64,000 bases of DNA, from assembly GCF_019059575.1 (NCBI RefSeq), contig NW_024881674.1:820592-884591 (forward strand). Reading direction: 5' to 3'. The translations under genes and the position numbers were made by a program. Below the pieces are notes generated by a model that had not been told where the DNA came from, did no database searches, and saw nothing but the letters and a program-made list of their open reading frames with translations. Positions 9,321-54,885 of the stretch are shown here, one piece after another; within the stretch, counting starts at the first letter, position 1; the number at the start of each line of letters is the position of its first letter. This DNA is from Amphibalanus amphitrite. Its lineage: Eukaryota; Arthropoda; Thecostraca; Balanomorpha; Balanidae.

Positions 9321-9402
9321 ACCGACCACACGTCAGCCGTCCGGCGCCGCCGCTCTACCGACCACGGACACCTGACAGGAGCTAACTGACAAGGAGCTCA
9401 GA

Positions 9403-10020
9403 GGGCAGGGCAGGGCAGGGCAGGGCAGGGCAGGGCAGGGCAGGGCAGGGCAGGGCAGGGCAGGGCAGGGCAGGGCAGGGCAGGGCAGGGCAGGGCAGGG
9501 CAGGGCAGGGCAGGGCAGGGCAGGGCAGGGCAGGGCAGGGCAGGGCAGGGCAGGGCAGGGCAGGGCAGGGCAGGGCAGGGCAGGGCAGGGCAGGGCAGGG
9601 CAGGGCAGGGCAGGGCAGGGCAGGGCAGGGCAGGGCAGGGCAGGGCAGGGCAGGGCAGGGCAGGGCAGGGCAGGGCAGGGCAGGGCAGGGCAGGGCAGGG
9701 CAGGGCAGGGCAGGGCAGGGCAGGGCAGGGCAGGGCAGGGCAGGGCAGGGCAGGGCAGGGCAGGGCAGGGCAGGGCAGGGCAGGGCAGGGCAGGGCAGGG
9801 CAGGGCAGGGCAGGGCAGGGCAGGGCAGGGCAGGGCAGGGCAGGGCAGGGCAGGGCAGGGCAGGGCAGGGCAGGGCAGGGCAGGGCAGGGCAGGGCAGGG
9901 CAGGGCAGGGCAGAGCAGAGCAGAGCAGAGCAGAGCAGAGCAGAGCAGAGCAGAGCAGAGCAGAGCAGGGCAGGGCAGGGCAGGGCAGGGCAGGGCAGGG
10001 CAGGGCAGGGCAGGGCAGGG
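9403..10020. repeat. (CAGGG)n pentanucleotide array with internal CAGAG block
   Basis: About 123 nearly perfect tandem copies of CAGGG lie on the plus strand, interrupted once by 11 copies of CAGAG (9911-9965). The plus strand is GGG-CA-GGG-CA throughout, meeting the G-quadruplex motif with 2-nt loops. The minus strand is open as (PALPC)n in all frames, which is a repeat artefact and not a gene. It abuts the 10-bp satellite directly. Confidence 0.97.
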
Positions 10021-13000: not shown

Positions 13001-14936
13001 AGGCAGTGAGAGGAAGTTAGAGGCAATGAGAGGCGGTGAGAGGTAGTCAGTGAGCAGAGGCAGGCAGTCAGAGGCAGGGCAGGAGGCAGTGAGAGGCGGT
13101 GAGAGGCGGCGAGAGGTGGTGGGAGGTAGTGACATGCAGTGAGAGGCAGTGAGAGGCAGTGAGAAGCAGTGAGAGGCAGTGAGAGGTGGTGAGTGGCGAT
13201 GAGAGGCGGTGAGGGGCGGTGAGAGGCGGTGAGAGGGGTCAGTGAGCAGAGGCAGGTAGTCAGAGGCAGGGAAGGAGGCAGTGAGAAGAGGTGAGAGGCA
13301 TTGAGAGGCGGCGAGAGGCGGCGAGAGGCGGTGAGAGGCAGTGACATGCAGTGAGAGGCAGTGAGAGGAAATTAGAGGCAATGAGAGGCAGTGAGAGGCA
13401 GTGAGAGGCGGTGAGAGGCAGTGAGAGGCGGTGAGAGGCAGTGAGAGGCGGTGAGAGGCGGCGAGAGGCAGTGAAAGGCGGTGAGAGGAAGTCAGTGCAG
13501 AGGCAGGCAGTCAGAGGCAGTGAGAAGAGGTGAGAGGCAGTGAGACGCGGCGAGAGGCAGAGAGAGAGGCGGCGAGAGGCGGTGAGAGCCAGTAGTGACA
13601 GGCAGTGAGAGGCAGTGAGAGGAAGTTAGAGGCAATGAGAGGCGGTGAGAGGTAGTGAGAGGCGGTGAGAGGCAGTCAGTGAGCAGAGGCAGGCAGTCAG
13701 AGGCAGGGCAGGAGGCAGTGAGAGGCGGTGAGAGGCGGCGAGAGGTGGTGGGAGGTAGTGACATGCAGTGAGAGGCAGTGAGAGGCGGTGAGAAGCAGTG
13801 AGAGGCAATGAGAGGTGGTGAGTGGCGATGAGAGGCGGTGAGGGGCGGTGAGAGGCGGTGAGAGGGGTCAGTGAGCAGAGGCAGGTAGTCAGAGGCAGGG
13901 AAGGAGGCAGTGAGAGGAAGTTAGAAGGCAATGAGAGGCAGTGAGAGGCAGTAAAGGCGGTGAGAGGCAGTCAGTGAGCAGAGGCAGGCAGTCAGAGGCA
14001 GGGCAGGAGGCATTGAGAGGCAGTGAGAGGCAGTGAGAGGCGGCGAGAGGTGGCGAGAGGTAGTGACATGCAGTGAGAGGCGGTGAGAGGCGGTGAGAAG
14101 CAGTGAGAGGCGGTGTGAGGCAGTAGAAGCGATGAGAGGCAGTCAGTGAGCAGAGGCAGGCAGTCAGAGGCAGGGCAGGAGGCAGTGAGAGGCAGTGAGA
14201 GGCGGTGAGAGGCAGTGAGAGGTTGTGAGAGGCAGTCCGTGAGCAGAGGAAGGCAGTGAGAGGCGGCGAGAGGCGGTGAGAGGCAGTGAGAGGCAGTAGA
14301 GGCGATGAGAGGCAGTCAGTGAGCAGAGGTAGGCAGTCAGAGGCAGGGCAGGAGGCAGTGAGAGGCAGTGAGAGGTGGTGAGAGGCAGTGAGAGGCGGCG
14401 AGAGGTGGTGAGAGGCAGTGACATGCAGTGAGAGGCAGTGAGAGGAAGTTAGAGGCAATGAGAGGCGGTGAGAGGTAGTGAGAGGCGGTGAGAGGCAGCC
14501 AGTGAGCAGAGGCAGTCAGTGAGCAGAGGCAGGCAGTCAGAGGCAGGGCAGGAGGCAGTGAGAGGCGGTGAGAGGCGGCGAGAGGTGGTGGGATGTAGTG
14601 ACATGCAGTGAGAGGCAGTGAGAGGCGGTGAGAAGCAGTGAGAGGCAGTGAGAGGTGGTGAGTGGCGATGAGAGGCGGTGAGGGGCGGTGAGAGGCGGTG
14701 AGAGGAAGTCAGTGAGCAGAGGCAGGTAGTCAGAGGCAGGGAAGGAGGCAGTGAGAAGAGGTGAGAGGCGGCGAGAGGCAGTGAGAGGCGGTGAGAGGCA
14801 GTGAGAGGCGGTGAGAGGGAGTAGAGGCAGTCAGTGAGCAGAGGCAGGCAGTCAGAGGCAGGGCAGGAGGAAGTGAGAGGCGGTGAGAGCCGGTGGGAGG
14901 CAGTGGGAGGCAGTCAGTGAGCAGAGGAAGGCAGGG
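10021..14936. repeat. 4.9-kb satellite, 10-bp unit AGAGGCAGTG/AGAGGCGGTG
   Basis: The whole block is built from variants of a 10-bp unit (AGAGGCAGTG, AGAGGCGGTG, AGAGGCGGCG, AGAGGTGGTG). A longer marker phrase, CAGTCAGTGAGCAGAGG followed by CAGGCAGTCAGAGGCAGGGCAGGAGG, recurs about 30 times at irregular spacings of roughly 80-220 bp, giving an imperfect higher-order structure. TGACATGCAGTGAGAGG is a second recurring marker. The first copies still carry CAGGG words, and GGGCAGG is embedded in the marker, so the neighbouring pentamer array probably grew out of this satellite. Long minus-strand ORFs rich in LPLTASHCLS are by-products: three 10-bp units make 30 nt, or ten codons. Confidence 0.97.
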
Positions 14937-20201: not shown

Positions 20202-20745
20202 TACCCTTTTTCATGCTGAGCTAACTTCAGTGACTGAAAATTTGATTGATATGAACATTTTACAATTGGGTGGCTAATTCTTAGATACTCTTAATTTGTA
20301 CTTTGGTTAATTCTAGTCCTCTTAGCCACTGGTGTTTTTGGTGCGCAGGAAGTCGTACATGCTTGCTTCAATTACTTTGTCTTTAGTTACTCTGGAGTCT
20401 TGACTACCTTTAAATTATATCCATTCCCTCCCTTATCCTATATCTGTTTCATATGTTTCATGATTTCTTCTTCACATGCATGATGCATTAACCAAATATT
20501 GCAATATTGTCCATTGTGCTGCTTCAGCCTTAGATAAACTGTGACAAGTCCTTTATCTGGGAGGACAACCCTCAGATCATTGATCAAGCACCATTGGTGT
20601 ACCTACTTGAATTGAAGTACAATTTTTGTGGTTGAATCCTTCTTTATTCACTCTTCTTTCACTTTTCACTCTCACTCTTCTGCTCTTGTTCCCAGGTACC
20701 ACGCAGAAGCTGTTCTTAACACCAGGCTGAAAAATTTCAAGAGCC

Positions 20746-23700
20746 ATGCCTAAGAGCAACAAACAATGGGCGTGGCGCATATCATTTGATGTTGCTTGTC
20801 TTCTCATAGGTAAGTGGACCGTGCTCGTTCGTTACCGTGCTGTGGCGTTCTGCTATGCCTGTAACGTGTGTCATCTGTTATGATGGTATATCTTACGAGT
20901 ATGTCTGAGTCATTTATCAGCATACATTTTTGGCGTTTCAATTACCTACCTTACTGTATGATAGGAATTTATATATTTCCTGCTCAAGTTGTGTGTGTTT
21001 TATTTTGGTGTAGATGGAGTACATCTTTTGAGCATCATTTTATGCATCGCATAATTTTTGTAACTGAAATGCATGACATGCTGACCACTATATTTGGCAG
21101 TCATTCAAATTTCAATGTAAACAAGAACATTGGTTCTAGACATGCTTTCAAAGCAAAATATTGACGCAATGAGGGATGCTATCTTCGGGCCGCCTTAGCC
21201 AGCATATTGTATTACAAGACCGAAGCTGTTTGGAAATATTGGCCGCATTTGTTAAAAATAGACTGCTATGGTTCCAAATAGAATGAAATCAAGCAAAATA
21301 GATTCTCATGAATAGACATGGAATAGAGTAACAATGGAATATTGACGCTGCTTGATGTGGAATGGCAACACATATTTTTACAATTACTAACACATATTTT
21401 TTTACAATTACTGAGTCAAAGGGAGGGTGAGGTGAATGTAGTCCCTGAGTTATTTAATTATGTGATAGAGGTTAAGGCAAAAGCCGTATGAGGTAAAGCG
21501 TTCAGTAGTCTGGCTAATTTTATCCGCATCTTTGAAAAGAGAGTAATCGAAGGCCAGCTAACCAAAGAGCAATCGCCGTCGGTTAGGTATTCTGTTTGGA
21601 GTATAACTGGCCTCGGGTAAGGCCGGTAAGGCCAGTTGCGGAGCTACGAAATCATCGGAGGTGCAACCTGCAAACGATCTTTCGACCTTCACTAACTCTA
21701 ATATATCGACACAATGCTTGCTTGTCATCGTTGATATTATACTAATAAGAAGCAGTTGTATGTCTATTTGTCAATGTTAATGAACAAATGAACGGTCATT
21801 GATCCGAACTCAGCTAAGATTAAAGATAATAATGAGTATGTCATTCAATGAGCATGTCTAATGTCTTACGGGATTTAGGGGCTTTGACGGATGTGTGTAT
21901 CGCCATCCATCGTTTACTTGTCGTTTCGTTTGCTACAAACATATTAATCGAGTCCCCAAAAGCACAGTCTGTCTCGACTGTTCTCGACGATAGCGATCAG
22001 CGAGGGCGTCGCCGTTTCATGAATAGAAAATCGCCTTGTCCTTTTCGCAGTGTTCGGCAGCATAGGCGGTTACAACCGGGTGCCGCCGCCTCAGACCGGG
22101 CTGTTTTGCGATGACCTCTCGATCCGATATCCGTATATTGCCAAAGACACAGTAACAGACGCCGCTCTCTATGTAGTGGGTGCCATCCTTCCCATCACTC
22201 TGGTAAGTTGACGTCGCCTCCTTGCCATGCGAGCCCACATGTGTAAATAACGCCTTCACTGGCTAACATGAGCGACACATTGGCCTGGCATGTGTCGGCA
22301 TTTTGCCAAACTGAAATGCTGACGAACTAACAAAATCTTTCGCGATTTCTCTTCTACGAGCCGTTCACATTTACAGCCTCTGTCCACCATGCAGTGGTGA
22401 TGGTTAAAGTAAATTAACTTTGTTTTTGGGCTCTGTAAAACTTTCAACGTGAATCGAGTGGGCGTGCCCACTGCACACCTCTGCATACGATTCCACCGGG
22501 GGCTGAATCTTATTCCATAAAGCGTATGGATTCTATCACATTCTCATTCTTCTGTGAGGGGCTGTCCTTTTGGGTGGCTTTTGCGCCGAGGAAACTTCCC
22601 GTTGCGATTTGAGTGCATGGAAGCGGTCAGGACAGGGTTGTGTAGCCTGCTGCCGTGCTCATCTCTTTGGCACTCTCCTGTTCATCGAGTGTTGCAGACC
22701 GATGTCTGTTTGTTTGGAGCGGAGGACAGCGGCTGCACTGAGTGCACGCTTACTCTGTGATCTGTCACTACGGGGGATGTTGGCTAGCGCTGACAGAGTG
22801 CACTGGATTATGTGTGTTTTGGGTGTTGCTGATAGCGAGTCTTCCTATTAACTATCCCTCTGGTGTTTTAGCAGTAGGTAGTAGCCGTACATAGGCAGTA
22901 AAAAACTAGGTAGTTTTTAAACCAGTTTTCATGCACGTCATCAGTCTGTCAATGCTCACAATTAGCGTAGGTTTGAAGAATTGATCATTTGAAAGTTTAT
23001 GCTCATTTGCTGACAACCTGAACATTTTAAGATGGCAGCATTCTAGGTGAGGTTGCATATTAAAACCGAGTAGGAATAATATGTATGCATATACTCCACC
23101 GATACACGCTGGAAAAGAACGAGTGCGTTTAGAGGCGCTGAGGCTTAATGATCTGTTTTTATACCAGAATCTCTCTTGGCGCGTTTGTATGCTTGGCCTG
23201 CTTTGACGGCCCATCTAGCGAGTCGCCATGCCCGAGTCGGTGCCTCCGCTGTGCTGTCTCGGACGACTCACTCTTGTCCCAGTCCGTCGGCGGGCGCCGC
23301 CCTGTCTCCGACTGCCTCTCCTGCCTCGGCCGTTGCCTCCGGGCGCCGGACAGAGGAGCACGCAGCTATGACCCGGCTCCGTCCCGTCTGTCTATTTCAG
23401 TGGGCTTCTCTGTGCTAGCGTTTTACCTGGCCGGCCGGCCGTTCGAGCGCGGCTTCTACTGTGACAATGAGTCGATCCGGTACCCGTACCACCACGGTAC
23501 CATCTCGTCCACCGTACTCTACTCGGTCGGGTTCGCACTCAATATGGTGGCGGTGAGTGTGGCCAGACAATCCACACCGGCGGCGGTGAGGCATCTTCGT
23601 CTGCCCCTCTTAACTAGCCTCGGCGACACGTGTAGATATCGGGCAGGTGTAGTGATAGTGACCATCCAGAGACTATCCCCCCCCCCCCCCCCAATGTGAT

Positions 23701-26700
23701 CCTCTGGTCTTATTTCCACTGTCATGTTTCACGGCACGCTGATACCCGCCTCTACCAGGTATTGGTGCTTGGGTTTCCATGGAAATGTCGTTGAACTTGC
23801 CAAATCTGTTAACATTTTCAGGAGAACCGAAGCGCCATTCCCTGGTAGTGGCGGGTAGCGACGGCCCGTGAAACGGCCCTGTTCGTCCGTGCTCCCCCCC
23901 CCCCCCCATCCCGGGCAGTCAGCGGATTGTATTATGGCAGGATGATTGCCAACATTTGCTCGCCGGCCAGTGTGGAGAGAAGGCTGTCCGGTGTCCGTTT
24001 TCAGCTATTCCATCTCGTACTCCGCTTCCCCTATTCGATTTCCTTATTGTCACATTCCCCTGGTGGCCGCTGTCCCTGATTTCCGCTGTCCTTGAATTCC
24101 GCCGTCCTTGATTTCCGCTGTCCTTGGTGTCCGCTGTCTGCCGGTCCGCTTCCCCTGCGGTCCGCTGTCCCTGTCCAGTGTTCACTCTCCGACAATCACG
24201 GGGGTAGTCAGGATAGCCGAACGGCCCAGCCAGGTGCGGAACGTCATACGTCGTGTCGCTTGACGTTCGATGTAAATGGCTTACACACGATTTAACGGTC
24301 TGTTTTGGTCTAATAACACGTGGTGAACAGGTTTGCAGCACCATAGATAGATCGAACTCACCCTAACCCAGCACCCGAAAAGTTAAAATTGACGAGGCAA
24401 TTTCTGTTTCTCGGTTTCCGCTTATGACTTCAACTGCTCGCATGTTTGTTGCATCTTATTTCGTTCCTTCCTTTACGTTTGCTGGATGACTAAGATCTGC
24501 CCGTCGTATTAGCTTTTTTCGTAGTTAGTAACGGTATGGCTTGATGATGTTGTCGAGCTCTTCCACGCAAATCTGTCGTTTCAAGCGTCGTCGCACGCGG
24601 CTTCTGATCCCAATCTTCGCCTCTTTTTCATCGCTTCACTCGACTAGGAAGAACTGTCGCTATTCTTCAAGGCCATAGGTGCTTTTACAGGATTTATCGA
24701 GTACGATTTATGATTTTTTCTTCGATTTATGATTTTCTCCTTCGATCCGGGCTGTCTCAAGTCAACAACTCTATCCACCATCGCTTGTTATCTGGCTGAT
24801 ATAAGGTGCAGCGTACCGAAATGAATGTCGGGTTAGTGTCGGTTCAGTCATCACTCCACCTCGCCACACCGCATTCCGCAAACGGCTCGCGTTGTGTGAG
24901 CGACCTCCGGCGTTCGCTGTGGTTGCCAAGGCCATGAACACTCGCCTGGTGGTGACTGTGCAGTTGGCTTGCACACACGGCTGTGTGCGTATGGTTGGGA
25001 CTTGAGAGAGGGCCACGCTACATAGGGCCTTGGAGCCACGTTGGCTGTACCGCTCGCCGTTCTGACTTTACAACTCCACACGAAATGTTGGTCGTCTGGC
25101 GCCCGACGTTGGGGAGTTATGTTCGCTGAACGCCGTGCTATTTCGATCGAACGTGCTGACACGCTGTCATTCGATCGGTGGAAAACCGGGTTGGCCCCAC
25201 CCATCCGCCTCGTCACTGTCACAGTGTGTGTGTGGGGGGGGGAGGGGTGCGTGATCCTGAGACTGTCATTCGGAGCGCAGCTTTACATACGGGTGCGTTC
25301 GGCTTCGCTCCACATTACGACCTCCGTTTTTTTTTCTGCTCTGTTTCCCAGTTCTAGTATACAGTGTATCCTGCTGACACTGGGGCCCTCTGAGCGTTGT
25401 TGGCCACCGGAGTGAATTTTCGCACAGATATAGTTCCTGCGTTAACCGGTCTATAACAGTCGCCTTTGAGGCTAAATAAATAATTGGCTGTTCCGGTACG
25501 GTAGAATTAGAAATATACTTATGTTGCATATTAAGAGAAAATGCACGAATTTGCCTCGGCCCTGATGTAATATTGGAACGTATTGCATGGGGCATGGACG
25601 CAATTCATGAAATATTGCCTCTTGGGGCAGTGCATATGTAATTTTACTATGGTGCAATCAAAAGCGTTTGACGGCTCCCGATGGGTAGGTTTAAAAATTA
25701 AGTGGAATGGTGGGGAGCGTGCCTCGCTATTCGGACTTGTGTGAATAGCGTCCATGTTAGCCCCCGAGCCTCTGACCAGTACGCTGGCTCTGGTGCCATG
25801 CAGGAAATTGCCGCCACTGATACCATGCAACGTTAAGTCACTCTTGCGTTATTGCGTATAATTCCAGAGCGAAACATGGGTCGCGTTTTGCTTTCAACAT
25901 TCCTTTCCTATTACGTTTACCGGCAATCTTGAGTTTGTATACGTATCATTTAGTGGTAATTTGGACAAGCCATTCCGATGGCATTTATTATTTATACTTA
26001 AAGGTAGTGTGCCAGCTTTCTTGGACCGTATGGAGTTAATGGCCCAGATAAGGAGAACCGGATTTTTAGAACTTATCCATACCTTCAAAACTCATGGAAA
26101 CGTCTTAAATTCTTCAAATTTTGAGTACCCCAGTGCGAAATTCGCCCCGACGGGTTGTCGGTCGTACCCCAACCACATTTCACACCACTATGAACAATAA
26201 ATGCACACACTGAAATCGCTATTACCGATATGCTCATCCAATCAAGTTTCGATAAACCCGTTCATCATCAGCTCCTGCGGTTTCGAACACGCCTGTTAGG
26301 TGGTGCGGTGGACCACGCCCAAAGTCAGGGCCCCGGTAACGTGAGGTAGCCGAGTCAGGGCAGCGTGCGCTGACCCAAGCCGGAGCCGCGCGTCCTCCCG
26401 GTGTCATGTGATAGCCCGGGGCCGCCGACTCGGCTACCTCACGTTACCGGGGCCCTGGCTTTGGGCGCGGCTTCTGCTCATACTTTGTGGTGCGGTGGTG
26501 GTGCGTCGGGCTGCGCGCTCTGACTTCGGCCAAGAAAAATGCGTCAGCTGATCATTGTCATTTCTGCCACTTGCGTGTGGTGAAATGGGGTCATAACTTA
26601 TAAGACGGCTTTATCATATCAATTATTTTACATAAAATCATATTTCAAACCATAAATAATGTTCGACAGCCAAATAAAAGAAACAATACCAAAACGGGCT

Positions 26701-29700
26701 TACAGTTTAAGGCTCGACATTGTGTTGTCTACGATTAGACAGCTGATAAATCATTCCCGTACGTCGTATGGTCGTAACACTATAATGACCTTTGCTTATT
26801 GTCACAAGTGCGCCGCATTCGCGATTGTTGCCCGACGCCTGTTTGCAGGTGAGCCCACTACAGTTGTTATACATATCTAAAAACCGATAAACTTTTAGGC
26901 GAAAAAGGCACTATTCCAGGCCCATTTTTTGATTTTGTTTGCGATATTAGGTAAAAACAGAAGCTTCTTATCCTAGGAAAAATAAAATGGGAAATCTTTC
27001 AAAGGTGGCACACTACCTTTAATACTAGTAGGTATGCTGGTAGATGCTTGTGGATTGGGAAACGGAAACATACATTTATACGTGCTTACGGAGGCCCACG
27101 ATGCACATGTGTTGGCGAACATGATGATATATTAATTTTACGGTTATGATCAGTTTATCCAAGTTATTCCGCACAACAGTTTTGGAAGTGCGGTGCTCTT
27201 AGGGAAAGTGTCAGTCGTATTGAAGGGCTTGTGCTACTGTGCAGTGTGCAAGCCTAATGTAAAGTTGCCTTTACCACCTCATAGCACATGCCATCACCGC
27301 GTCGCGCTGTATTCTTGCTACTTGCGCACTTTGCGTGGCCTCGACCATTTCTAGGAGCCAGGAGGTGCCTGTCCGCCTCCGGAGCGTCCAGGGACCAGTC
27401 GCGCACCATGCAGACCTCCACAGCCGCCGTGCGAGCTGTGCCCACCCTCCGGCGTGGTCCGCCCGCGCCCACAGCCTCCCTGTCCTCCATTGCAGTGGCC
27501 GTGCCGCTGCTGGTCTTCTTCACCGTTGGCCAGCCGTTCGAGCGGGGCTTTTTCTGTGACGACGAGTCCATTAGGTTTCCGCTGAAACCGGACACGATCA
27601 CGAACCTGGCCTGTTACGCCGTGGCTGTGACGCTCACTGTGATCATGGTAAGTGGCGGCGGCGGCCGCAGGCCCAGGGTCCCGTACCGTCCGTCCGCCCG
27701 CCCGCCCAGTCGCAGTAGCTTTTGTCGCCGGCCGCTGTCGGTCTCTGACTGCGGCCCGACGCGGTTCGTCATTCTTCACGTGGCATCTTTTGGCCATCTG
27801 TCTAACCCGTCCAGTACCCAGCAAAAGATTCCGATGAACATTCTCCGCTTCAATACTGATTCCTGACTGTCTTGCGACATTTTTTATAATTGTCTTCAAT
27901 CTTGTTCTACTAATTATATTCTTCTATCTTTATGTCCTATTTTTACACCTGCTTGGTGATATTTTTCTTAATTTTCTGCTCATAAATCTACCAATAGTTT
28001 TGCATCTACCTAACATGTTTCTCACTCTATTAGTCGTTAGTTCTGTCAGTCCTGCTTCGGCCGAGAAGAGTGGAGGGTCCGCATCTGCTTAGCCCCTCAG
28101 CTTGGCCACATCCGGCCTGTCTGCTTCACAACACCGCAGTCCTTGGAGTGCGACACCCGCTTCTGTGCATAGTCTGCGGTGACGGATTCCACCCAAGATT
28201 CCACCAGCCACCGGCTTTTCACCGCACAAATGCACAGGCGTGATGATGTGACGAACTGCGTCCGCCCAGCGACTGACAGATGTCCTGACCTGCGTTACGC
28301 TGGACCTGCTTGGGTCATGGGTCTTGGAATTCGCTCACGGCGGATTTGTTAGCTCACACAGTCTCCTGGTAACATAGTTGACATGTATACAACCCGCCGG
28401 AATTGCCACGACGTCCGGTTTGTTTATGTGCATTGCATGCTTGGATCAGTTGTAGTTTGCACAGGGGATAGTAAATGAAGTCGGCGAGAAAAGATTGATG
28501 TGCTTATATGTGGTTCAAACTCAAAGAAACACTGAAATCATCAAAATTAGATCATTAAAAAGAATCATCAAAATCATCAAAATTATTCATTTATCTTCTT
28601 ACTCAGTCGATTTGTTTTATGTTGTCGTTCTTCGCTATTGTTTGATGTGAACTTTCTTTTAATTGATCTAAACTGCTCATATTGGGTTACTGTACAGTTC
28701 ATAGCCGTGTTGCTATGTGATGCAGTGTGCGCTGAGCACTGTGCCTCGCTGTCTCAGTTAAGGTATACAGACATGATCCCCCATAGCTTCACTGAGGTTC
28801 GACATCTTGAAACCAAATGAACACTGTTCCGTATTGAAATTGTGTTCAAATTTTGGAGCAATTATAATGCATAACACAGATCAAAAAATGATTGTTCCGT
28901 ATTATTATACTTGTGTCAGCTGAAATACAAATTCGGAGCAATATCGGTTGGTTGCTGTCTTGCTGTTTGTGCCACTTTAACCTACGCCGTGCGTGGGTCG
29001 ACGTTCTTTGTACTTGGTGTGCGTATTTATTGGAAGCATGATTTCACCGAACATACTTGGCATGGGGACCATTTTAGAGCACGGTGATACCGACTTTAAT
29101 TATATTGAACGTGTGCATTTAGCACTTAAACTTGGCATGTAATGTGAACACGACTCACTCAAGGTGAACGAGAAGAATGAGTGTTATTAATTCGAAAGGA
29201 GATCCATGTAAGAGGTTTGTGTCCGGGGCTTTACGGGACAGTCCCGCGACCCCGTCCGTCCCCTACCACCCTCTCCTCTCCGAGCTCCTGTCGAGCTGCA
29301 CGAGAGGGTCGTCTATCTCCTCGGCGCCTCGGGCTACCCACATCCCTCTAAGTCAGGTCCCGCGTGTGACACACAGTCTCGTGCGCCGGTGGACCCGGGG
29401 TAACTACCGAACTGGTGACCGGGCCAGAAACATGTTACGCTCGTCCGCCTACCATCGTGCCGCTAATGGAATCCGGCCGGTGACTGTTTTTATGACGTCA
29501 TGGCCGCATTCACTGACGTCACGTAGCGATCAAGTGTCAGCGGTGCATACCAAGTACGGACGGTGAATCATTCTCCGGTCGCGATATAATGGTTTACGAC
29601 CTAATAGGCCGTGTTGTAGAGTTGCAATGTTTCCCCCAAAGGCTGCTACCGGCACCGCCCCGCCCCACAAAAATTTTCTGGGATACCGGCATGCTACCAC

Positions 29701-32700
29701 GCCCCAAGCAAAAACACCACCAAATTACCGGCATGCTAAAAAACCTGCATTGTTGATTCTAGCTTACCCCTACAAGAGATGCCACATTTTGGCAATTTCA
29801 GTAGGTACCCATCCCACCCAGCAGCCACTCTATCACAAAATGTATTTTGCAATGGCTAAGATTGTTGTTCTTACAATTTGATAACCTCTTAGTGTCCAAA
29901 GTTTGAATATATGCTAATAATTTTTTGTGCAAAACCAAAAATACCGGCATGCTACCGGCAAGACATGCCAGATACCACGAAAAAACCTGCGGTAGTGAAA
30001 AATTACCGGCATGCCGGTAGTGCGGTAGGGAAACTTTGCAACTCTACCGTGTTGGTCCGTGTGACGTTTGTATATTCGTGATTCATCTTCGTGACGTCAC
30101 AGCTACTCTCGAAAAGATGTAGGACATCGCGGTCCGCACAGCTGGTTCTATTGTTAGGTTGCTCGTTGCACATGCTGTGCTATCTAATCTTGCGAGAAAC
30201 CGCTCACATGTGGTTGCCTTCAGAACCGCGGATTGAGTACTTTCCGGGTGCCGGTATCAATCGCTCTGCAGCGGTATTGCAATTGTCGCGAGATATCGAG
30301 CAGTGCCCAGGAGTGACGCACAGCCGCATTGCATGTCACATTCTACTGAGCAGCGAGTATACACTGATATCATTCCTGTAATCCAATTACTACCGCTACG
30401 GAAATCTGAGATGGGGCCATGGTGCGGCTGGGGTGTTAGAATCAGTCTCCTCTTACCATTTTCACATTCACCCACGGCTCCGCTTTGTGGTCTACGTGGG
30501 CTGGGTCGAGGCTCTCTCGCCTCTGCAGACGGCTTGTGGCCCTGATCTTTGGCGTGACATCAGCTCAATGAAGATAACCGTCTCCGAGCGTACGCTGCCC
30601 AACGACAGACGATTGCAGAAGTCATGCGTGACTTGCAGCGGCGGTGGTGTTTGCGACTACTGCGCTCCCTCGAACCTTCAGAGAAGCTCGTTGTACCTCC
30701 CCACAAACTTTTTCCTATAGCAAACATTCGTACGCGATGGAATCTGCAGGGCTTTGTAAGGGTCTGTTAGCAGTCCACATGAGGATTGAAACCCATACAA
30801 GCTGGAGCGACTGCTCAGGCCTCGGGAGCACAGACACCGTTGCAATCGAGCCTTGCAGTTGTTCCGGCGGATTGATTGGCTAAGGCCCATTATCTGGCCT
30901 TCTGGTGGTTAGCAAGACTTCACTCGCCTATCAAAGGTTCAACTTGCAGCGTTGTAAATGCCGGGGTTTCCTAGTAGTATAAGTAAACCTTCCGCTCCCT
31001 GCAGTCAACTTATGGGTATTGTGTAAGCTTAGTTGTCCGTCGCAGTGCGGATGATGGACTTTGGATGGACGAATTTCATACACACAGGCTCCCATAGTAG
31101 ATGACACCTAACATGAGTGTATTTAAGGGTAATCCATTCCATAAGCAAACGCTCGCAGTCTGCAGAGGTGCCTTTGGCTGGACGTTCTGCCGGCTATGTC
31201 TGAGCGTGCTCTCTCGGATATTGACGCGAGGTCGTTGCTGTTTCGGAACCGGGTCAGACCGGGCTCTATTGATCGAGCCTGGCAGACCAGGCTGAGGGCA
31301 TATTGTACCGATACAGATAGAATGAAACAAATGCCACTTAGTTGAATGGGTGATGGTGAAGAGATCATCTTCGCATGCGCTCTGTCCTGATTACTAACAT
31401 CTACTGATAGACACATCTTGCATGAACTTTTAGCTTCCATGTTTGTCGTGTGGTTGGCGCATGAACTTCTTCATTGTGGCAGAAGGTGCTCTTTATTTCA
31501 CTGTGTCTTATCTTTATTTCACTGTCTCCAGTTGCTTACCTTGTTAGCTGGTGCTTGAATTTGGCGAATTACTGTTGCGCTCTCTTGTTTTTAGAGTGGT
31601 ATGCGAGTATTTATTCGCCGTAGCTGTGTCAGAGCGAGTAAACGCTTTTTAAATTTTGCATTATATTGTGTTTATTTATTTCCATGTGTACAAACATTGC
31701 ATATCACGCTGTTTTTTATTTACGTAGAGACAGTAAGGCAACTTGTCATTTATTCACGGTAAAAATGCATCATACGACTGTCTCCATGGTCGCAGTACCG
31801 TGGCACAAAACTAACAAGTGTGCCATGACTGTTGTGCAGATGTCGATAGTGGAGTACTTCCACTGCAAGCACTGCCACCGCCAGAAGACGATGGAGGTGT
31901 GCCGACTGAAGGTGCACCCGTGGTTCTGGGCCATCTACCAAATGGTGGGCGTGTTCGCGTTCGGCGCCGCCTGCTCCCAGCTCGCCACCGACATAGGTGA
32001 GACCAAACGAACAGCGGTTAGCCCCGAAACAACAGCCGTGTAGTCGAATAACAGCCGTGGGAATGTGGTGAGCTGCTCTTCGAATGACTAAATTTGCGGT
32101 CTTATCTCTTTTCTCTGGATGTTGCGGAGTCTGAGGCTCGATTGGCTATGTGATTTGTGACTTGAACTATTTTTATATAAATGGCTTTGAACCATGCCCT
32201 AGTTTTGTTTCGTTAGTATAATGTATGGTATTATATTTGCGCCTTGGAAACCGACTGCCGATAATCTGTAATCACAGATGGCTGGCTCGGTGCACTGCGG
32301 GCACCGATGGTCTCTGGGCCGCGACTATTCTATTCTGTCTCGGCTGGCCACATTACCCAGCCCCGGTGCCAAACGACGCTTCCTGGCTCCGGGCCGCCCG
32401 CCTCTCTCGCCCGTGACGTCAAACCACCCACCCATGGCCTGCTAGTTGTGTTGGTCATGGTGTGACGTCACTCGATATATGTGACGTCACCCGGTCAGCC
32501 GGAGTCCCGGGTGAGGGTCAGCCACCTTCGGCTCCCCGGGCGCCCCCCCCCCTTTGTTAGCTGAGATAGGTTCGGAGTCAGTGACGGTGAATGAAACCGA
32601 ATGATTACCTATGTGGGTCTTTGGACTCATGAACTCTGGATAATCGAAGGACACAGAACAGGCACCTATTGTTGTACCAAGTACCTCTATGATCAGATCA

Positions 32701-35700
32701 AAGTAACAGGAACTTGCCTACCGTTTCGAAAACGGAGACTTGTGAATTCGTTTGGGCTCCAGCTACTGCTTGATGTATCAGCTAATCAAATGCCCCTGCA
32801 TTGTATATGTCATTAAGATTTATATGGTGCAACACTGCTTTGAGCGTTATTATTATCGGGATCTCATCAACTGAACAACAGCATCTCATAAATATGTGCG
32901 TTATTTTTTGCAAGTTTTACAGATTACTGGCTCAGTTGTCATTCCATGCATCACGATAAATGTAAACAAGTGCTGCAAACGAGCAACCGATACATCGGTT
33001 TGTCGTTTGTTCGTTTGTTCATGTCGCGTAACATCCTTACAGCGCTGTCTTGTTTATATAATGTTTATTACACTGTTCATATTACATAGTCATATTACAA
33101 TGCTCCTTGACAGTCTGTAGGTTTACCTGCGTGTTAGTATGTATTCACTCTATTAACCCGCGCCCCGTAGGGCTACCGGCGGACCCCACCACCCGTAGGG
33201 GGGGGGGGGGGGGGCCGTTTCGGCCCCCCCCTAAGATCTCGGACATTTACCGGCCGATTTTCAAAATTAAAACGGCGATCGATAGCCCCACCAGGGAACT
33301 ACCTTGTGACCAAATTTCATTGACCTAGGTCAAACCGATGACGTCACAGGTCAGGTCAAAGGTCAGATTTTCACCGTTCACAGGCATTTCAAGAAATGTG
33401 TTGTGAAATCGAGTAAATTGGGAAGTTATTGAAAACCATCGATGGCACATTGTTCGTCAAACATATACTCTGCTATCTGAGGTCACTGATACCAGGTCAG
33501 GTCACAGCGAGGTCAGGTCACCGGGGGTCACAATATGAAAGTGTCGTGTGATACATGTTTTATGGTCCATTTTACATGACAAATGCGATTATGTGGGTCA
33601 GACAGCCTTTGGAGCCAGCTAAGGTCACATTTTGGTCAAGGTCAAGTCAAGGTCAGGTCAACTTAGGTCAAATTTCAAATTTGATGTTTTTGCATAAAAT
33701 GGGTATCCATTCGATGCAGCTCGTCACGGGGAGTCCAATGGTGGTCTTTGTTTTGCTCTACTTGGTCTAGAATTGCCAAAAATTGAGTTTGAAAATTTGA
33801 CGTCATCATTTTTGCACAGTGTTTTCGCTATAACTTGGCCAAAAATCGAGATATCGATCTGAAATTTGGATGTAGATAGATGACGGTAGGTTCTATCACA
33901 TATATTCCGTTTTTTTCGAAACTCAAAAAAACTATCTGGATTTTTTGGCTAATATATCCAAAAAATTGCATTTTTGATTTTTGGGGGTTAAAACTCGAAA
34001 ATTTCAAAAATCCGAGATAGCAGTTTTGTAGCCTTGTCAATTCTACACCTTTTATGTCTAGATCATTTGTCTGTATCTTCGAAGCTGTAGGCCTGACAGC
34101 TCTTCTCGCGAAGGTCTTTTTCGGTCGAAAATGGCAGAACATGACGTCATTCTGACGTCATTTGTGGCCAACTTATCATAGCCTCTGGAAAAATGTTTGG
34201 TCACAATGTGTAAAATTGATGCCCGGAGGGGTCCTGAAAGTTTGGTGGCGATATCTCCAGCCGTTTAGGAGATATCGAGGGACAGGGGGGCCGTTTCGCC
34301 CCCCCCCCCCTACGGGGCGCGGGTTTAAGCGTGCTGCAGTGTTCAGACCACTTGTTCAGACCGCGGTGGTCCCGCTCCGCAGGTAAATACTCGATCGGCC
34401 GTCTGCGTCCCCACTTTATCGCCGTGTGCAGGCCGGACGTGCTGGAGAACGGCAGCTGCACCGATCACACTTACATCACGAACTTCAAATGTCTGGGCCC
34501 AGACGAAAAGGCCATCAGGGAGGCGAGGTACGGACGGGGTATGGAGGGGGAGGGTGAGGGATGGAGGACGGAGGTCATCAAGGAGGGAGTAGATCGGAGA
34601 AGGATGGAGCTAGGCAAGAGCTATAGTGCATTGTTAATGGTGTCAAGTGCTTTTGCGAGGAACATAGCGACTAGCGAGTATAGATATGTGAAGAATCGTT
34701 GACCTTTTACTCGAAGAAATTAAATAAAGGCCAAAAATTATATTTCATACGGTGAGCTTTTGGCTACAAGATTTTATCAAACCAACAAAATGTCGCGCCA
34801 CAAAATTTATGCTGACATGATGCACGATACAAAATTCATGTTGACTTGAATTTTATATCGTGCCATTTTGTTGGTTTGACAAAAGCTTGTAAGTTGTAGC
34901 CGAAAGTTCACCGTCTCTAATATAACTTTTGACCTTGATCTTATTCGTTCGAGGAAAACGTCAATGATTCTTCATATAGCAGATGTGAAATGTTAATGAA
35001 TTTGGGGGAGATGAACTGCTTCTTCTCGTGAAAAGTAAAAAATAACAATATTTGATTTCTGTTCCCCGCCTTTTACGCTAACTTGCATGGTTTGCGGGCA
35101 CGTCTTGATGTATGACGTATGACGTACCTATGAGGCATGACACATACATGGTTGACGTGCGCCAGGCTGTATTATGACACTGTGACGGTCTATTGTATAT
35201 GACGATAAATATCCTAGTTTAATTGTCTATTTTGCTGTTTTGTTGTTCCCCATAGCATCCTTATATTCATTTCTGACCTTGGTTGCGCTGTCTTTGTGTT
35301 TCAGGCTATCGTTCCCGTCCGGCCACGCCTCGTTCTCCTTCTACACGATGGTGTACCTGGCGGTAAGTGGTCACAACATCTCCACGACACACGACCAAAC
35401 GCCAACCATTCACACGAGCTGACACCGACTGGCGCCTGTTCTACACATGTCCTGACACATTAAGTTCTGTTGAAGGTTTCTGCTATCCCGCTCACCATTC
35501 GTTACACCGTGACCGTCATGCCGTACCATTACCATCTGTAACACCATGACCGTCACGGTCATAGTCAGTGTCAGGAGCCATGATCTGGTGCAGAATATGC
35601 AAGCGATCTGTTACCGTTACCTTGCACAACCGTCTGACTTTGATCTCTTCCCTCTCAGAAAAAAACATGCACTTCCGTCCCGTCCCTTCCGCTTACCAGT

Positions 35701-37022
35701 TTTTACTTGCAAAAGCAATGATCCCTCGCTCCCCCTTCCGCTTCTAGTTGCACCTGTAGGGTCATCTGACTCCGCGCTCCACTTCCCTTTCTAGATGTAC
35801 CTGCAGCGTGCGTGGTCGTCTGACTAACCGCTCCCCTCCCCTCTTAGCTATGCGAATAGGATCATCTGACCCACCCCCACCACTCTCAGCTGTACCTTCA
35901 AGATCACCTGAGCCCCTCCCCCTCAGCTGTACCTAGAACACCATCTGACCACTCCATCTCTCAGCTGTGCCTGTATAGTAATCTGACCGCGTCTCTCCTT
36001 CCCTCTCCAGCTATACCTGCAGGCGCGGCTGACGTGGCGCGCCACCAAGCTGTTGCGGCCGTTCCTGCAGTTCGTCTGCCTGATGCTGTGCTGGTACACG
36101 GCTCTCAGCCGCGTCTCCGACTACAAGCACCACCCGACTGACGTGCTGGCCGGAGCCGTGCTCGGCGCCATCGTGGCAGTGCTCGTGGTACGTCCCCGCG
36201 GCCGTGCTCGGACTAGCCGCAGAGCCGTGTTTGGTAGTGGCGAGAGGGAGCGAGCAAGGGCTGGTGCGGGAGAGGAAAATATTGTTTCTTATACCTATTA
36301 GGACCTGAACTGGCGACAGTTCTCCGGCCAAAATGCTTTGTCATTGTCACAGGCTTAATGTTGTTGGGCTTGCTTTATTGGTTTTGTAGCTTCTTACGAT
36401 GCTGATGCCCTTTTAGTCACTTTGTTCCAGACGTTTAATCATAACGGGTCTTTGGATAAGCGTAATTCTCTCTTTTCTTACAGGACGGGTGGGTCCAGAG
36501 CCCTCACTTGTGGGCATGTGGCGCCCCTCGGTGACTCTCTTTGGAACCAGCACTTTGTTAGTCGGGCAGCTTGGCAAACAATCTTCCCCGGACCTTGCTG
36601 ACTCGTTTTCATTTGAATTTGGGGCGTCCGTACATAATGGTCTTTGCGCTACATAGTTTTAGAGTGGAAATTCTGAGCGATTTGGTTCCAGCTATTGATT
36701 TTACATTAATTGACGTTTATAGCCATGTGGCATGATGATTATATATGATAAAACTGCAAAGGGACCCGGTAAACTAGGTTGCGGTCCTGCTGCCTGTATG
36801 TATTCTTCCACTTCCTGGCATCACGACCAGTTGTCACCACATCCCCGTCCGTCCGTCTGACTTGTCCCCGTGAGTCGTCCAGTGGCCGTCTGACCGGCCC
36901 GCTGCCGTCCACAGGCTGTATTCGTCTCTGGCATGTTCAAGAGGCGGTGCGCCGCTGCCGACATCGCGCCCGTCTCCAGACAAAACACCGTCAACAACTC
37001 TGAGCCGCTGCAGCCGGTCTAG
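20746..37022 (+). CDS. Lipid phosphate phosphatase (PLPP/wunen family), complete with three alternative exon 2 copies
   Basis: Integral-membrane enzyme that dephosphorylates lysophosphatidate, phosphatidate and related lipid phosphates at the plasma-membrane outer face or lumen. Exons: 20,746-20,809; one of 22,051-22,202 / 23,401-23,552 / 27,496-27,647; 31,840-31,996; 34,383-34,527; 35,305-35,362; 36,011-36,187; 36,915-37,022. Any single exon 2 choice gives exactly 287 codons (286 aa), matching the usual family length of about 285. All three phosphatase motifs are present: KYSIGRLRP across the exon 3/4 junction, PSGH in exon 5, and [16 protein letters not shown] in exon 6. Six membrane spans are expected. 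The ATG at 20,746 follows a possible acceptor (ttcccag at 20,690-20,696), so a 5' UTR exon may lie upstream. Introns carry MITEs and long hairpins; exon 6 is preceded by an array of decoy acceptors. Family is certain; which vertebrate paralogue is closest is not. Confidence 0.95.
22051..22202 (+). CDS. PLPP exon 2, version A
   Basis: 152 nt between ttcgcag and gtaagt, entered in phase 1 and left in phase 0, like versions B and C. It encodes [10 protein letters not shown], then [10 protein letters not shown], then a hydrophobic tail ending ILPITL. It covers the end of membrane span 1, the first extramembrane loop with the family's CxDxSIRYPY motif, and the start of span 2. It differs most from the others: a polar, proline-rich segment ([11 protein letters not shown]) replaces the hydrophobic end of span 1, and a one-codon shift around the Cys is compensated later so that length is kept. 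Confidence 0.9.
23401..23552 (+). CDS. PLPP exon 2, version B
   Basis: 152 nt between tatttcag and gtgagt, phase 1 to phase 0. It encodes [20 protein letters not shown], then [14 protein letters not shown] and a hydrophobic tail ending [23 protein letters not shown] is the canonical exon 2 sequence of the family. The intron following it is 3.9 kb long. Confidence 0.95.
24056..24180. repeat. Short minisatellite TTCCGCTGTCCTTGA
   Basis: Five to seven imperfect copies of a unit of about 15-16 bp (GATTTCCGCTGTCCTT) lie in the PLPP intron between exon versions B and C. Confidence 0.7.
26318..26470. repeat. Long stable hairpin in the PLPP intron
   Basis: The arm beginning CGCCCAAAGTCAGGGCCCCG and ending AGGTAGCCGAGTC (26,318-26,358) is matched by its reverse complement at 26,428-26,468 with one mismatch over about 41 bp; the loop is about 68 nt and GC-rich. 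It lies between alternative exons 2B and 2C. It could be a small MITE, a structured intronic element or a small-RNA precursor; the sequence does not decide. Confidence 0.85.
27496..27647 (+). CDS. PLPP exon 2, version C
   Basis: 152 nt between cattgcag and gtaagt, phase 1 to phase 0. It encodes [20 protein letters not shown], then [14 protein letters not shown] and a hydrophobic tail ending VTLTVIM. It is very similar to version B in the PFERGF(F/Y)CD(D/N)ESIR core but distinct in the loop after it (PLKPDTITN against PYHHGTISS). Confidence 0.95.
29617..30046. mobile_element. Non-autonomous hAT element (MITE) with intact 8-bp TSD
   Basis: The left end TAGAGTTGCAATGTTTCCC and the right end GGGAAACTTTGCAACTCTA are terminal inverted repeats with one mismatch. 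They are flanked by a perfect 8-bp direct repeat, CCGTGTTG (29,609-29,616 and 30,047-30,054). An 8-bp duplication with TAG.GTTGCAA ends is the hAT hallmark. The 430-bp body has no transposase and repeats the word ACCGGCATGC five or more times, some copies palindromic. It lies in the PLPP intron between exons 2C and 3. Confidence 0.88.
32414..32489. promoter_or_regulatory. Cluster of three CRE-type TGACGTCA octamers
   Basis: Perfect TGACGTCA palindromes lie at 32,414, 32,463 and 32,482 within the PLPP intron after exon 3. This octamer is the consensus CREB/ATF site. Clustering suggests an intronic regulatory patch or a repeat that carries the motif; binding is inference only. Confidence 0.35.
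33153..34328. mobile_element. TTAA-flanked non-autonomous element (piggyBac-like MITE)
   Basis: It begins TTAACCCGCGCCCCGTAGGG and ends TACGGGGCGCGGGTTTAA, inverted termini with one extra base, each followed inward by a poly-G/C tract and CCGTTTCGGCCCCCC-type sequence. The body is non-coding and rich in AGGTCA/TGACC half-sites, like the element at 18,370-20,201, so the two appear to be related families. Its right end lies 54 bp before PLPP exon 4. Confidence 0.72.
34675..34990. repeat. Imperfect foldback in the PLPP intron
   Basis: Left-arm landmarks TGAAGAATCGTTGACC, ACGGTGAGCTTTTGGCTACAA and CAAACCAACAAAATG reappear in reverse complement and in mirrored order (CATTTTGTTGGTTTG, TTGTAGCCGAAAGTTCACCGT, TCAATGATTCTTCATAT). 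Arms are roughly 110-150 bp with the centre near 34,831. It lies between PLPP exons 4 and 5 and has no ORF. Confidence 0.8.
35650..36034 (+). repeat. Minisatellite built from the 3' splice site of PLPP exon 6
   Basis: Upstream of the true acceptor (exon start 36,011) the unit [pyrimidine tract - (C/T)AG - CTGTACCTG... - TCATCTGACC] is repeated with 37-53 bp spacing. Decoy acceptor-like junctions fall before 35,748, 35,795, 35,848, 35,890, 35,927 and 35,965, with fainter ones near 35,659 and 35,699. Each decoy is followed by a relative of the real exon start CTATACCTGCAG and of the word GGCTGACG. The repeat unit therefore spans the intron-exon border. Confidence 0.8.
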
Positions 37023-40000
37023 GGGGCGCCAGACGGGCCCTGCCGTGTCCGCAGGCTGTCCCCGCCTGTCTTTGGTAGTGTTCGCTGGTTGACGGCGATT
37101 TCATTGTCTGGCTAGCGGACGCCAGGTCCTTGCCGATGGGCCGCGGTTGTTGAACAGTGTTTTGTCGAACAGTGTTTTTGGCAGGAGTTCGGTCTCCAAG
37201 AAGCGGTGTGCGAGGAGGCGAAAGGTCGTGGAGCCTGGCACCACATTGTGTATTACAGTGATGTGCAGAGAGAGGTACAGCAATATTCGGCTCAACTTGC
37301 TAACGACAACATTACTCCATTCTCCGACGAAGAAGCTAAATTCCTGCCTCAACGGAGCTTCAACGGTTGAAATTGAATCATATGTTAAAGATGCGAAATT
37401 AAAGGCTTTCTGCAGTTATCGTCACTACTAAGAACGTGTCAGCTGCGAAATTGCAAGCATTTCTTGGCTTACTTGTCGTTCGGTGTGTGGAGGTGCGGCA
37501 AACTGTTCAATTATAGCTATTGAATGCAAAAATGTACACTTTCGCATGAAGTTGTTACGGATTCGTCCGCATGGGTCGTCTAAAAGGCTTATGTGTTTGG
37601 CCTTTGCACGTCAAGTGTATGACCATTTGCACGTAGTTAGTGGAAGAAACACCGGTCGATACCAGAGGTGCAGGCCTGGGCTTGGTAGGATGGATTCAAC
37701 GAACAGCTTACACTGTACTAAGCTTCCGTTCGGTGCTTGGTTTCAACCATTTGTAACTTGTAAGTGTACGTGTAACTTGTAATGTCACTTGACAGACTAC
37801 CTGATCAGTGATAGTGTTCTGATATGGTTTGTTAGCGTCGTTGTTTACTAATCATCTCACAGTAGTTTGTCCTTTGTGACTGTGCGTGTTATAAACATAA
37901 CAAGGATCAGGTCCCATAGCAGTAGAACAGCTGTATGGAGATGTAGCATGTTGACAGCGAGCTTATATTCGCTATATCGTGTTCGTCTGCCACTCAGGAC
38001 TTTGCGTTGATTTCGTTCAGCAGTGTCAGCTCCTTTCGTGACTGCCACTTCCATTCTCCGAGTAGCTTTTCTATTCCCTATCGATGATCATGTACTGGAT
38101 GATTCATAAGTATTTCCAATTTTGACACAATGTATTGGTGTTAATTCATATGGTTAGTGCAGCTAAGTTTTCACGGAAGCGACCGTATTTTTCGTTTTAT
38201 TTCGGCGATTTGATTCGCAGTCTGTGAGCTTGGTTGTGGGAGCGTCAGAGAAAGCGACGTTTGCTATGTGAACCTAAACATGTTTGATCGTAATAAGCGT
38301 AGTGCCTTTTATGCCGTAAGATTGTTATCGTTAGTAAACTGATGAATGCGAGCAAGTTTTTGGGGTTCGAGTATTTATGGAGACCAAGCTGGCTCTTTTC
38401 AGAAAAAAAAGAAGAGTTGTGTCATTTGATATCGGAGGCAAATAACAGAAGATGAGATGAGCATGTTAAAATATGAATTTTGCCTCATGATGTGGTGGCC
38501 TGACTATGATGTGATAATTTCGGCCTTTTGGAGAAGGGATGTTGAAGGTGTTTTGTGATGGCTCTGATAAGAGCTTGGTCAATTGTCATGGTGCCCGCTT
38601 GTGAGCCGGAGTTGGCTGATTTACGTTTCTGGCAAATATCGTTTTTTGAATAAGGTTCCGTGGTGCCGAGGAGCCATGCTTTGAAACTGATTAGGGTGAA
38701 GGATAGCTTACCTTGGTCGCGCTGGATGAATGAAGCAGCATTTTTTATTTTGCCTATGTAGAGGGTGACCTTGAGCGGTGTCATTGGTTTTGTGTTTGCA
38801 AGTAAACATTTATTGTTTGCGGCTTTTGACGTTACCAAATACAAAATGCATATGTTTTCTCAACAACCAATTTGTGTTTCACTTTTCAAATATTTGGTTT
38901 CTGCCTGTTTGGCGTTTCGAGAGTTGCCCTTTGTTGTTTTTGACTGCTCCGCAGCGTGCATGCGTGGTTTTGAAACCGAAGGTGCGACTCGCGAGCATCA
39001 TTCGAGCAGAGGGACAGCCTAATTCAGTGGCCATCGCATTCGGACGAGCACGGAGCATTCACCACCTCTGGGTAGCCATAATTCCTCTTTAGGGGAGTGA
39101 CAAATACGCAAACCTCAGTGACTCCTCAAATGTTGATACAGATTCTAGTTCAACCTTCGCTATCGGTCTACGGCATCGAGTTTTAGAACGTGGGGTCAGA
39201 ACGATCAGCTTGAACTGGCTTCGTATGGAGGCGTGGAGGCATACAAGGCCCATTCAGGTCGTGATCATGTGGTGATCATCATCATACTTATCCATACTGA
39301 GGCGAGCACTGAAGTAGGGAGGTACTGCTGGTGCTGCAGCGTCGATCCCCCTCCCGGCTCCCGCTACTTTGTCGTAATCCGAGCTCGCTAAAAAGATGTG
39401 TTGATTGATCACTACCATTCGTACGCCCAGCCTTCACGCTAATTACGATCATCCGTGGCGTGCGTCTGTGTTGTAATATGAAAATGGTAGCCGGTAGGCG
39501 AAGTGCTTCTTCCGCTGAGGTTTCGCTGGCGATTTTGAGTCATCCGTGATTCCCCGCCCGTCCAGATGACGTCACCAATTCTGTGGAACCATTGTATTGT
39601 TAGATGCCGATAATTTCCTAATCCTTGATAGTGTGTTGAGCGACGTCGAGCGGCGCGGAGGCGAGTGGGTGTGTTGGTCATTCAATTAAAATGAAGAAAA
39701 ACGAGTGATTATTAGAGCGCTCACGTGTGTCAAGGCTGTTTTTAAGAACTGAAGGCCTGACATATTAATAATCAACGAACACTTGGCGTTTTTCTAGTGG
39801 AATAAGTTGTTGGCTGACTTCTTGGGGTGAAGCCCGACTTCAAGTAAGTTACAGCAGGTGACTGTATTAAATGATATTTTTGCATCGCTGGGACGGTGGA
39901 GGAAGAACTCTTTGTTCGAATTTGATATATATTTTCGAAGATCTCAGATATTCTCACTGACAGATAAGTTCTTACTTGTAAGTTGTCTTTGTCAGTCTAA

Positions 40001-40029
40001 GATCAGCTGCACAAGAAGAGAACATCAAC
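37023..40029. other. Intergenic: PLPP 3' region and dynamin upstream region
   Basis: I see no supportable exon. Just before the dynamin start, TTGTCTTTGTCAG (ending at 39,991) looks like a 3' splice site, so a 5' UTR intron may end here. One TGACGTCA lies at 39,567. Confidence 0.5.
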
Positions 40030-54500: not shown

Positions 54501-54885
54501 GCTGCGCAGCGGGCCGGAGGCGCGGCTCTACCTGCTGCTCTCGGCGGCCGCTCACGTCTCGCTGGGCCCGCTGCTGTTCGGCGGCCGAGAGGCGCCAGCG
54601 CGCCTGCTCCTGGCCGGCCTGCACGCTGGGTACGCGGCGCAGGCGCTGCCGGCCGCCGCCGGTCCGCCCAGCCGCGCCTACACCGGCTACCTGGCCGGTC
54701 TGGCGGCCGTGGCCGTGTATGACGTCATTGGACACCGGGCGCTCGGCCTGGATGGCCGGTGGCCGTTCCTGCCGCTGCTGGTGACGTCACTCTACTGTGC
54801 AGTGGGCGTGGTCTGCTGCTGGCTGGCGCTCTACTGGCATATGCTGTTCAGGGTAGAGGGAGGACAGAAAATCAAGGTGCGCTAG
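51534..54885 (+). CDS. ALG8 dolichyl-P-Glc:Glc1Man9GlcNAc2-PP-dolichol alpha-1,3-glucosyltransferase (lacks exon 1)
   Basis: ER membrane GT-C glycosyltransferase (family GT57) that adds the second glucose to the lipid-linked N-glycan precursor. Exons: 51,534-51,701; 52,264-52,368; 52,670-52,838 (alternative start 52,595); 53,119-53,355; 53,796-53,901; 54,215-54,885 (stop TAG). Phases join cleanly throughout. Diagnostic strings are [18 protein letters not shown] with the luminal acidic residue, [43 protein letters not shown] and WHVHEKA. About 485 codons are present; only the short N-terminal exon is missing, upstream of a phase-2 junction. The first listed intron starts with GC, not GT. The third listed exon has a duplicated acceptor 75 nt upstream. 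The last exon is very GC-rich and contains TGACGTCA twice. The gene converges on MFSD6, with stop codons 477 bp apart. Confidence 0.95.
52029..52053. other. Perfect 25-bp palindrome centred on TGAGTCA
   Basis: Arms ACGCTTTC and GAAAGCGT surround TGAGTCA (the AP-1 consensus) in the first located ALG8 intron, and a second small palindrome, CCGCTAAGCGG, follows directly. Confidence 0.8.
52516..52695 (+). repeat. Three tandem copies of the ALG8 exon 4 acceptor region
   Basis: Two copies of TAG/CAG|GTGCGCGGACACTGT...CCCGGCCAGG.CACCTACCT begin at 52,595 and 52,670, 75 nt apart. A third, eroded copy (TGTGCACAGACCTCGTGTCC) begins near 52,516. The unit contains the pyrimidine tract, the AG and about 45 nt of exon. 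Confidence 0.85.

Follow-up and report, generated by a model that had tools for sequence, protein, structure and literature searches.

Lipid phosphate phosphatases of the PLPP class lower the levels of lysophosphatidic acid (LPA), sphingosine 1-phosphate (S1P) and phosphatidate. In flies the related wunens act in germ-cell migration. The closest described system to the one considered here is mammalian PLPP1 (PPAP2A), an enzyme of the same class that is made in two versions, LPP1 and LPP1a, which presumably arise by exchange of exon 2 at the corresponding place in the protein (residues ~21-70). Exon clusters of the Dscam and para type are likewise built from neighbouring homologous exons of equal phase, of which one per transcript is expected, and docking/selector RNA pairing occurs in some mutually exclusive clusters only. 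In this work we analysed a 64-kb window of the barnacle Amphibalanus amphitrite (NW_024881674.1, positions 820,592-884,591; all coordinates below are those of the window), in which a gene of PLPP1-3 type carries three versions of its exon 2, against two in the mammalian gene.

A first-pass annotation of this DNA held that no such exon cassette had been described in the family. That is doubtful, as excerpts of the review PMC7564803 report LPP1a, a splice variant of LPP1, to have a different substrate preference: S1P seems to be handled more efficiently by LPP3 and LPP1a than by LPP1 and LPP2, and phospho-FTY720 is converted by LPP1a and not by LPP1. LPP1a is also counted as a splice variant in excerpts of PMC3418163, while those of PMC8889014 name LPP1a and LPP3 for fingolimod-phosphate. 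For the hookworm lpp-1 gene, excerpts of PMC4298947 describe differing first exons and 3′-end variants, not an exon 2 cassette. A literature search with LPP1a peptides found no paper, one for the solved PLPP1 structure brought up none describing it, and neither a three-copy nor an arthropod PLPP cassette was found described in the literature searched, in so far as its excerpts go and with most subscription papers lying outside it. What appears to be new is therefore the number of copies and the arthropod host.

We call the three exons 2a, 2b and 2c; in the phosphatase gene they follow coding exon 1 and precede exon 3. We interpret them as a three-way mutually exclusive exon cassette and put the probability of this at roughly 0.82. 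The coding exons of the gene are as follows.

20746..20809, + strand: coding exon 1, 64 nt, with the start codon and the first half of membrane span 1
22051..22202, + strand: alternative exon 2a, 152 nt, which diverges most of the three and in which PPPQTG replaces PFERG
23401..23552, + strand: alternative exon 2b, 152 nt
27496..27647, + strand: alternative exon 2c, 152 nt, whose isoform is closest to human PLPP1-3
31840..31996, + strand: constitutive exon 3, 157 nt, identical (100%) in haplotype 2
34383..34527, + strand: constitutive exon 4, which holds KYSIGRLRP
35305..35362, + strand: constitutive exon 5, which holds PSGH
36011..36187, + strand: constitutive exon 6, which holds the third catalytic motif (SRX5HX3D)
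36915..37022, + strand: coding exon 7, the last, which includes the stop codon

In the window sequence each of the three copies is flanked by AG and GT, is entered in phase 1 and left in phase 0, and has on the + strand a single open frame, the one that continues exon 1. The first-pass annotation had the coordinates, the 152/152/152 lengths, the splice dinucleotides, the phases and the open frames correct to the base. It was right but incomplete in assigning to these exons the end of span 1 and the first loop, since the swapped segment of ~50 residues comprises the second half of span 1, the entire first outer loop and, as judged from hydropathy, the start of span 2 as well. Donors of the three copies agree with the consensus at 7-8 of 9 positions, compared with 6-8 of 9 for constitutive exons 1 and 3-6, and their acceptors are pyrimidine-rich (12-14 of 16). 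The copies are neighbouring, homologous, equal in phase, compatible in length and equipped with splice sites, as in a mutually exclusive cluster. As they are separated by 1198 nt (2a-2b) and 3943 nt (2b-2c), and all sites are GT-AG, exclusivity is not explained by crowding or by incompatible sites. Upstream of the start codon in exon 1 there is an in-frame stop at 20728, with no in-frame ATG between the two, and an acceptor-like cccag at 20691-20695; the cccag and the stop suggest an upstream non-coding exon, in which case the start codon would lie in the second transcribed exon. By "exon 2" the second coding exon is meant.

From its sequence the gene is an arthropod PLPP1-3-type lipid phosphate phosphatase with predicted enzyme activity. 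The PAP2 domain (Pfam PF01569) is found in the 2b isoform at residues 111-255 with an E value of 3e-27 and 95.4 bits, the cut-off being 27.2. The motifs KX6RP, PSGH and SRX5HX3D are present in the translation of exons 4, 5 and 6 respectively, which we take to be the catalytic motifs C1, C2 and C3; the earlier placing of the catalytic motifs in later, single-copy exons is borne out. Human PLPP3, PLPP2 and PLPP1 (PDB 25qp, 21nw and 9l0i) match each isoform over most of its length, with E values of 1e-51 to 1e-74 depending on the isoform, and they too contain the segment corresponding to the cassette and the motifs, with 45-47% identity to the 2c isoform. Residues D15 and C18 of exon 1 are also common to the three human enzymes. 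For isoforms 2a, 2b and 2c the match is 203, 214 and 223 bits to human PLPP1, 179, 198 and 218 bits to PLPP2, and 237, 250 and 254 bits to PLPP3; because the scores rise from 2a to 2b to 2c throughout, we regard 2c as the standard form.

As an argument for a cassette, size and an open frame count for little by themselves: of the 40 AG-152nt-GT spans within 20810-31839, 10 can be read through in the required frame, the three real exons counted among them. It is the homology to human PLPP1-3 that raises the copies above chance. For this stretch of the protein a profile was made from human PLPP1, PLPP2 and PLPP3 alone. Compared with the 1600 six-frame segments of the window (at least 25 residues), it matched 2c at 3.2e-16, 2b at 1.8e-13 and 2a at 1e-9, the next best segment scoring 0.08. 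Seven positions (P, G, C, S, I, P and T) are invariant across 2a, 2b, 2c and the three human proteins. Without gaps the protein identity is 21/50 for 2b-2c, 10/50 for 2a-2b and 11/50 for 2a-2c, and gapped alignment gives 21/50, 18/49 and 17/49, so that the ungapped figures understate 2a. The duplication that gave 2b and 2c is old, given that the two have the same base at just 23 of 50 third codon positions. No fourth copy or pseudo-copy was found in the window with the profile, in C511:183000-209000 (the second copy of the locus, below), or elsewhere in the genome when 2a, 2b and 2c served as queries.

The reading frame points to the use of one exon at a time. In the translated gene model each of the three exon 2 choices gives a 286-residue product, while the five other combinations all run into a premature stop, never less than 379 nt ahead of the last junction, which confirms the earlier claim that the frame breaks on skipping or double inclusion. 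If all three copies are skipped, translation would end in exon 4 at codon 75; 2a+2b and 2a+2b+2c stop within 2b, and 2a+2c and 2b+2c stop within 2c. Stops that far upstream of the last junction are of the class removed by nonsense-mediated decay. We propose that exon 1 would be joined to exactly one of 2a, 2b and 2c and then to exon 3, giving three enzymes of 286 residues that differ only in ~50 residues and have the catalytic exons in common, and that products with none, two or three copies would be shifted in frame, stop early and probably be lost to nonsense-mediated decay. By analogy with human LPP1 and LPP1a, the choice could adjust the enzyme's lipid phosphate preference or its site of action, with the catalytic residues untouched.

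To ask how the copies have been maintained one can compare a second copy of the locus, which is present in the assembly (807.55 Mb in 2644 contigs) on contig C511 and adjoins a dynamin gene as in the window. Several other genes of the assembly likewise occur in contig pairs, for which reason C511 very probably represents the other haplotype, with a recent large duplication as the less likely source. Between the two haplotypes, as we call them, 637 of 11999 aligned intron bases are substituted (5.3%), with large insertions and deletions and 2939 of 15112 intron bases unaligned. Each of 2a, 2b and 2c differs by one substitution in 152 with no gap (P 0.0024 each), which is synonymous in 2a and 2c and changes E to D in 2b, and their splice sites are the same in both haplotypes. 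Together the three copies show 3 changes in 456 nt where 24.2 would be expected at the intron rate (P 4.9e-8), from which all three, the divergent 2a included, are judged to be under constraint. Constitutive exons 1, 3, 4, 5, 6 and 7 have 0/64, 0/157, 3/145, 1/58, 2/177 and 3/108 changes, or 9/709 in total.

The comparison also exposes several features of the introns. The longest run unchanged between haplotypes in 20810-31839 is one of 180 nt at 30337-30516, in the 2c-exon 3 intron, which is possibly a regulatory element and marginal as such given a divergence of 5.3%. In the same intron, 29616-30047 has 20-bp terminal inverted repeats (95% complementary) and is unaligned, its flanks meeting in haplotype 2. 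Within the 2b-2c intron, 25998-27022 has 22-bp terminal inverted repeats (95% complementary) and a hairpin with 44-nt arms; it is unaligned to haplotype 2, which holds ~2.2 kb of different sequence at this place. An element of ~1.17 kb at 33155-34325, which has TTAA at both ends and terminal inverted repeats that pair perfectly over 18 bp, is by its appearance a polymorphic piggyBac-like element, and the surrounding 32857-34327 is unaligned to haplotype 2, where there are 92 bases instead.

The proposal of mutually exclusive use is best supported by homology, phase, frame logic and conservation in both haplotypes, and several points weigh against it. Exclusive splicing is a prediction from genomic DNA, and conservation between two haplotypes speaks for constraint and says nothing on exclusivity. 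Dscam- and para-type clusters differ from the barnacle cassette in that here there are only three copies and no pairing element above chance was found: a comparison of the four introns for perfect Watson-Crick stretches, in this one species, gave a longest complement of 11 nt in three of the six intron pairs and less than 11 nt in the other three, lengths reached by 18 to 40 of 40 shuffles. The remaining points concern 2a, which diverges from 2b and 2c (10/50 and 11/50 ungapped) and has the least hydrophobic span 1 (1.57, compared with 2.24 and 2.61 in the other two), so that the 2a isoform may be weaker or seldom made.

The same features could mean that only 2b and/or 2c are used and that 2a, which lacks PF-RG as well, is a decaying relic. 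We think this unlikely, as 2a keeps an open frame and good splice sites, is found by the human-only profile at 1e-9, and has accepted a single synonymous change in 152 nt between haplotypes. A regulated unproductive switch, in which double inclusion or skipping deliberately lowers the amount of enzyme through nonsense-mediated decay, would fit the early stops, 379 nt or more before the last junction, that all five illegal combinations contain; any 152-nt exon would however give such stops automatically, and a switch of this kind leaves the conservation of three coding versions unexplained, which makes it very improbable. Least likely of all is that 2b and/or 2c are alternative first exons with internal promoters and start codons of their own, unspliced to exon 1, for although an 86-codon open frame with an ATG at 23148 precedes 2b and a 70-codon open frame with in-frame ATGs at 27288 and 27408 precedes 2c, all three copies have pyrimidine-rich acceptors, D15 and C18 of exon 1 are shared with human PLPP1-3, and between haplotypes the 252 nt from ATG 23148 to the 2b acceptor have 8 substitutions and a 5-base gap that breaks the frame while between ATG 27408 and the 2c acceptor there are 6 substitutions and 4 of 29 residues differ. 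First exons with their own start codons were rejected for 2b and 2c on this haplotype comparison, the stretches upstream of the acceptors not evolving as coding sequence; upstream non-coding starts spliced to these exons are conceivable.

Whether the barnacle cassette and the LPP1a exon have a common origin was approached with a tree of 2a, 2b, 2c, human PLPP1-3 and the LPP1a segment. Over 52 columns, and with a provisional LPP1a sequence, the approximately unbiased (AU) test retained all four hypotheses, represented by four constrained trees (p 0.35-0.57), and the free tree placed 2a with LPP1a at 43% support and 2b with 2c at 32%. It is a tentative idea, and on balance a doubtful one, that the exon 2 cassette predates the split of protostomes and deuterostomes, in which case 2a and/or 2b would go back to the duplication that also gave the vertebrate LPP1a exon, and 2c would share its origin with the standard exon.

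Used as queries against the whole genome, 2a, 2b and 2c each returned eight places, namely the three exons in two haplotypes and one place each in contigs C125 and C91. These last two were weak in the searches (E 0.2-2.3); at C125:668000-687999 and C91:462000-481999 there is a PAP2-type paralogue with an exon-2-like segment that the profile finds at 8e-10 and 1.6e-9. The paralogue has one such segment in each 20-kb stretch examined, compared with three in the cassette gene. Of eight loci retrieved from the genome, four have open frames by which the other PAP2 genes are presumably PLPP4/5-like (two), SGPP-like and PLPP6/7-like. The arthropod cuticle domain PF00379 gave at least 150 matches in the genome (150 of 705 candidates were scored) and none in 14 prokaryote controls, as would be expected of an arthropod. 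No relatives were found in the viral contig collection searched, and the genome contig collection gave one locus, from a bacterial metagenome-assembled genome.

Elsewhere in the window, 39982-42519 (+) encodes a complete dynamin (GTPase, middle, PH and GED) in a single uninterrupted frame of 845 codons, possibly through retrocopy origin or intron loss, and another single-frame dynamin pair of 832 codons is found in the genome on C292 and C301. An open frame at 54052-54885 (+) matches ALG6/ALG8 glycosyltransferase and one at 58713-59711 (-) matches an MFS_1-like transporter. Several kb of simple tandem repeats occupy ~9333-14515, in which both strands of the GGGCA-type part are open (RAGQG/CPALP) and the remainder is LPLTASH-like on the minus strand.

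The three exons are real and the cassette is probably functional. It would be a device already known from mammals, here in an uncommon form with three versions. If nature exchanges span 1 and loop 1 three ways on an unchanged core, this would show which part of the enzyme sets substrate choice, partner binding or location, and the difference between LPP1 and LPP1a points to the same segment, if that pair does differ by exon 2. Were the cassette as ancient as the tentative common origin implies, few known sets of mutually exclusive exons would be older; it would have been retained for more than 500 million years and would give an extracellular lipid-signal phosphatase two or three substrate or localisation modes. 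Its retention in both arthropods and vertebrates would then show that the choice is old and important.

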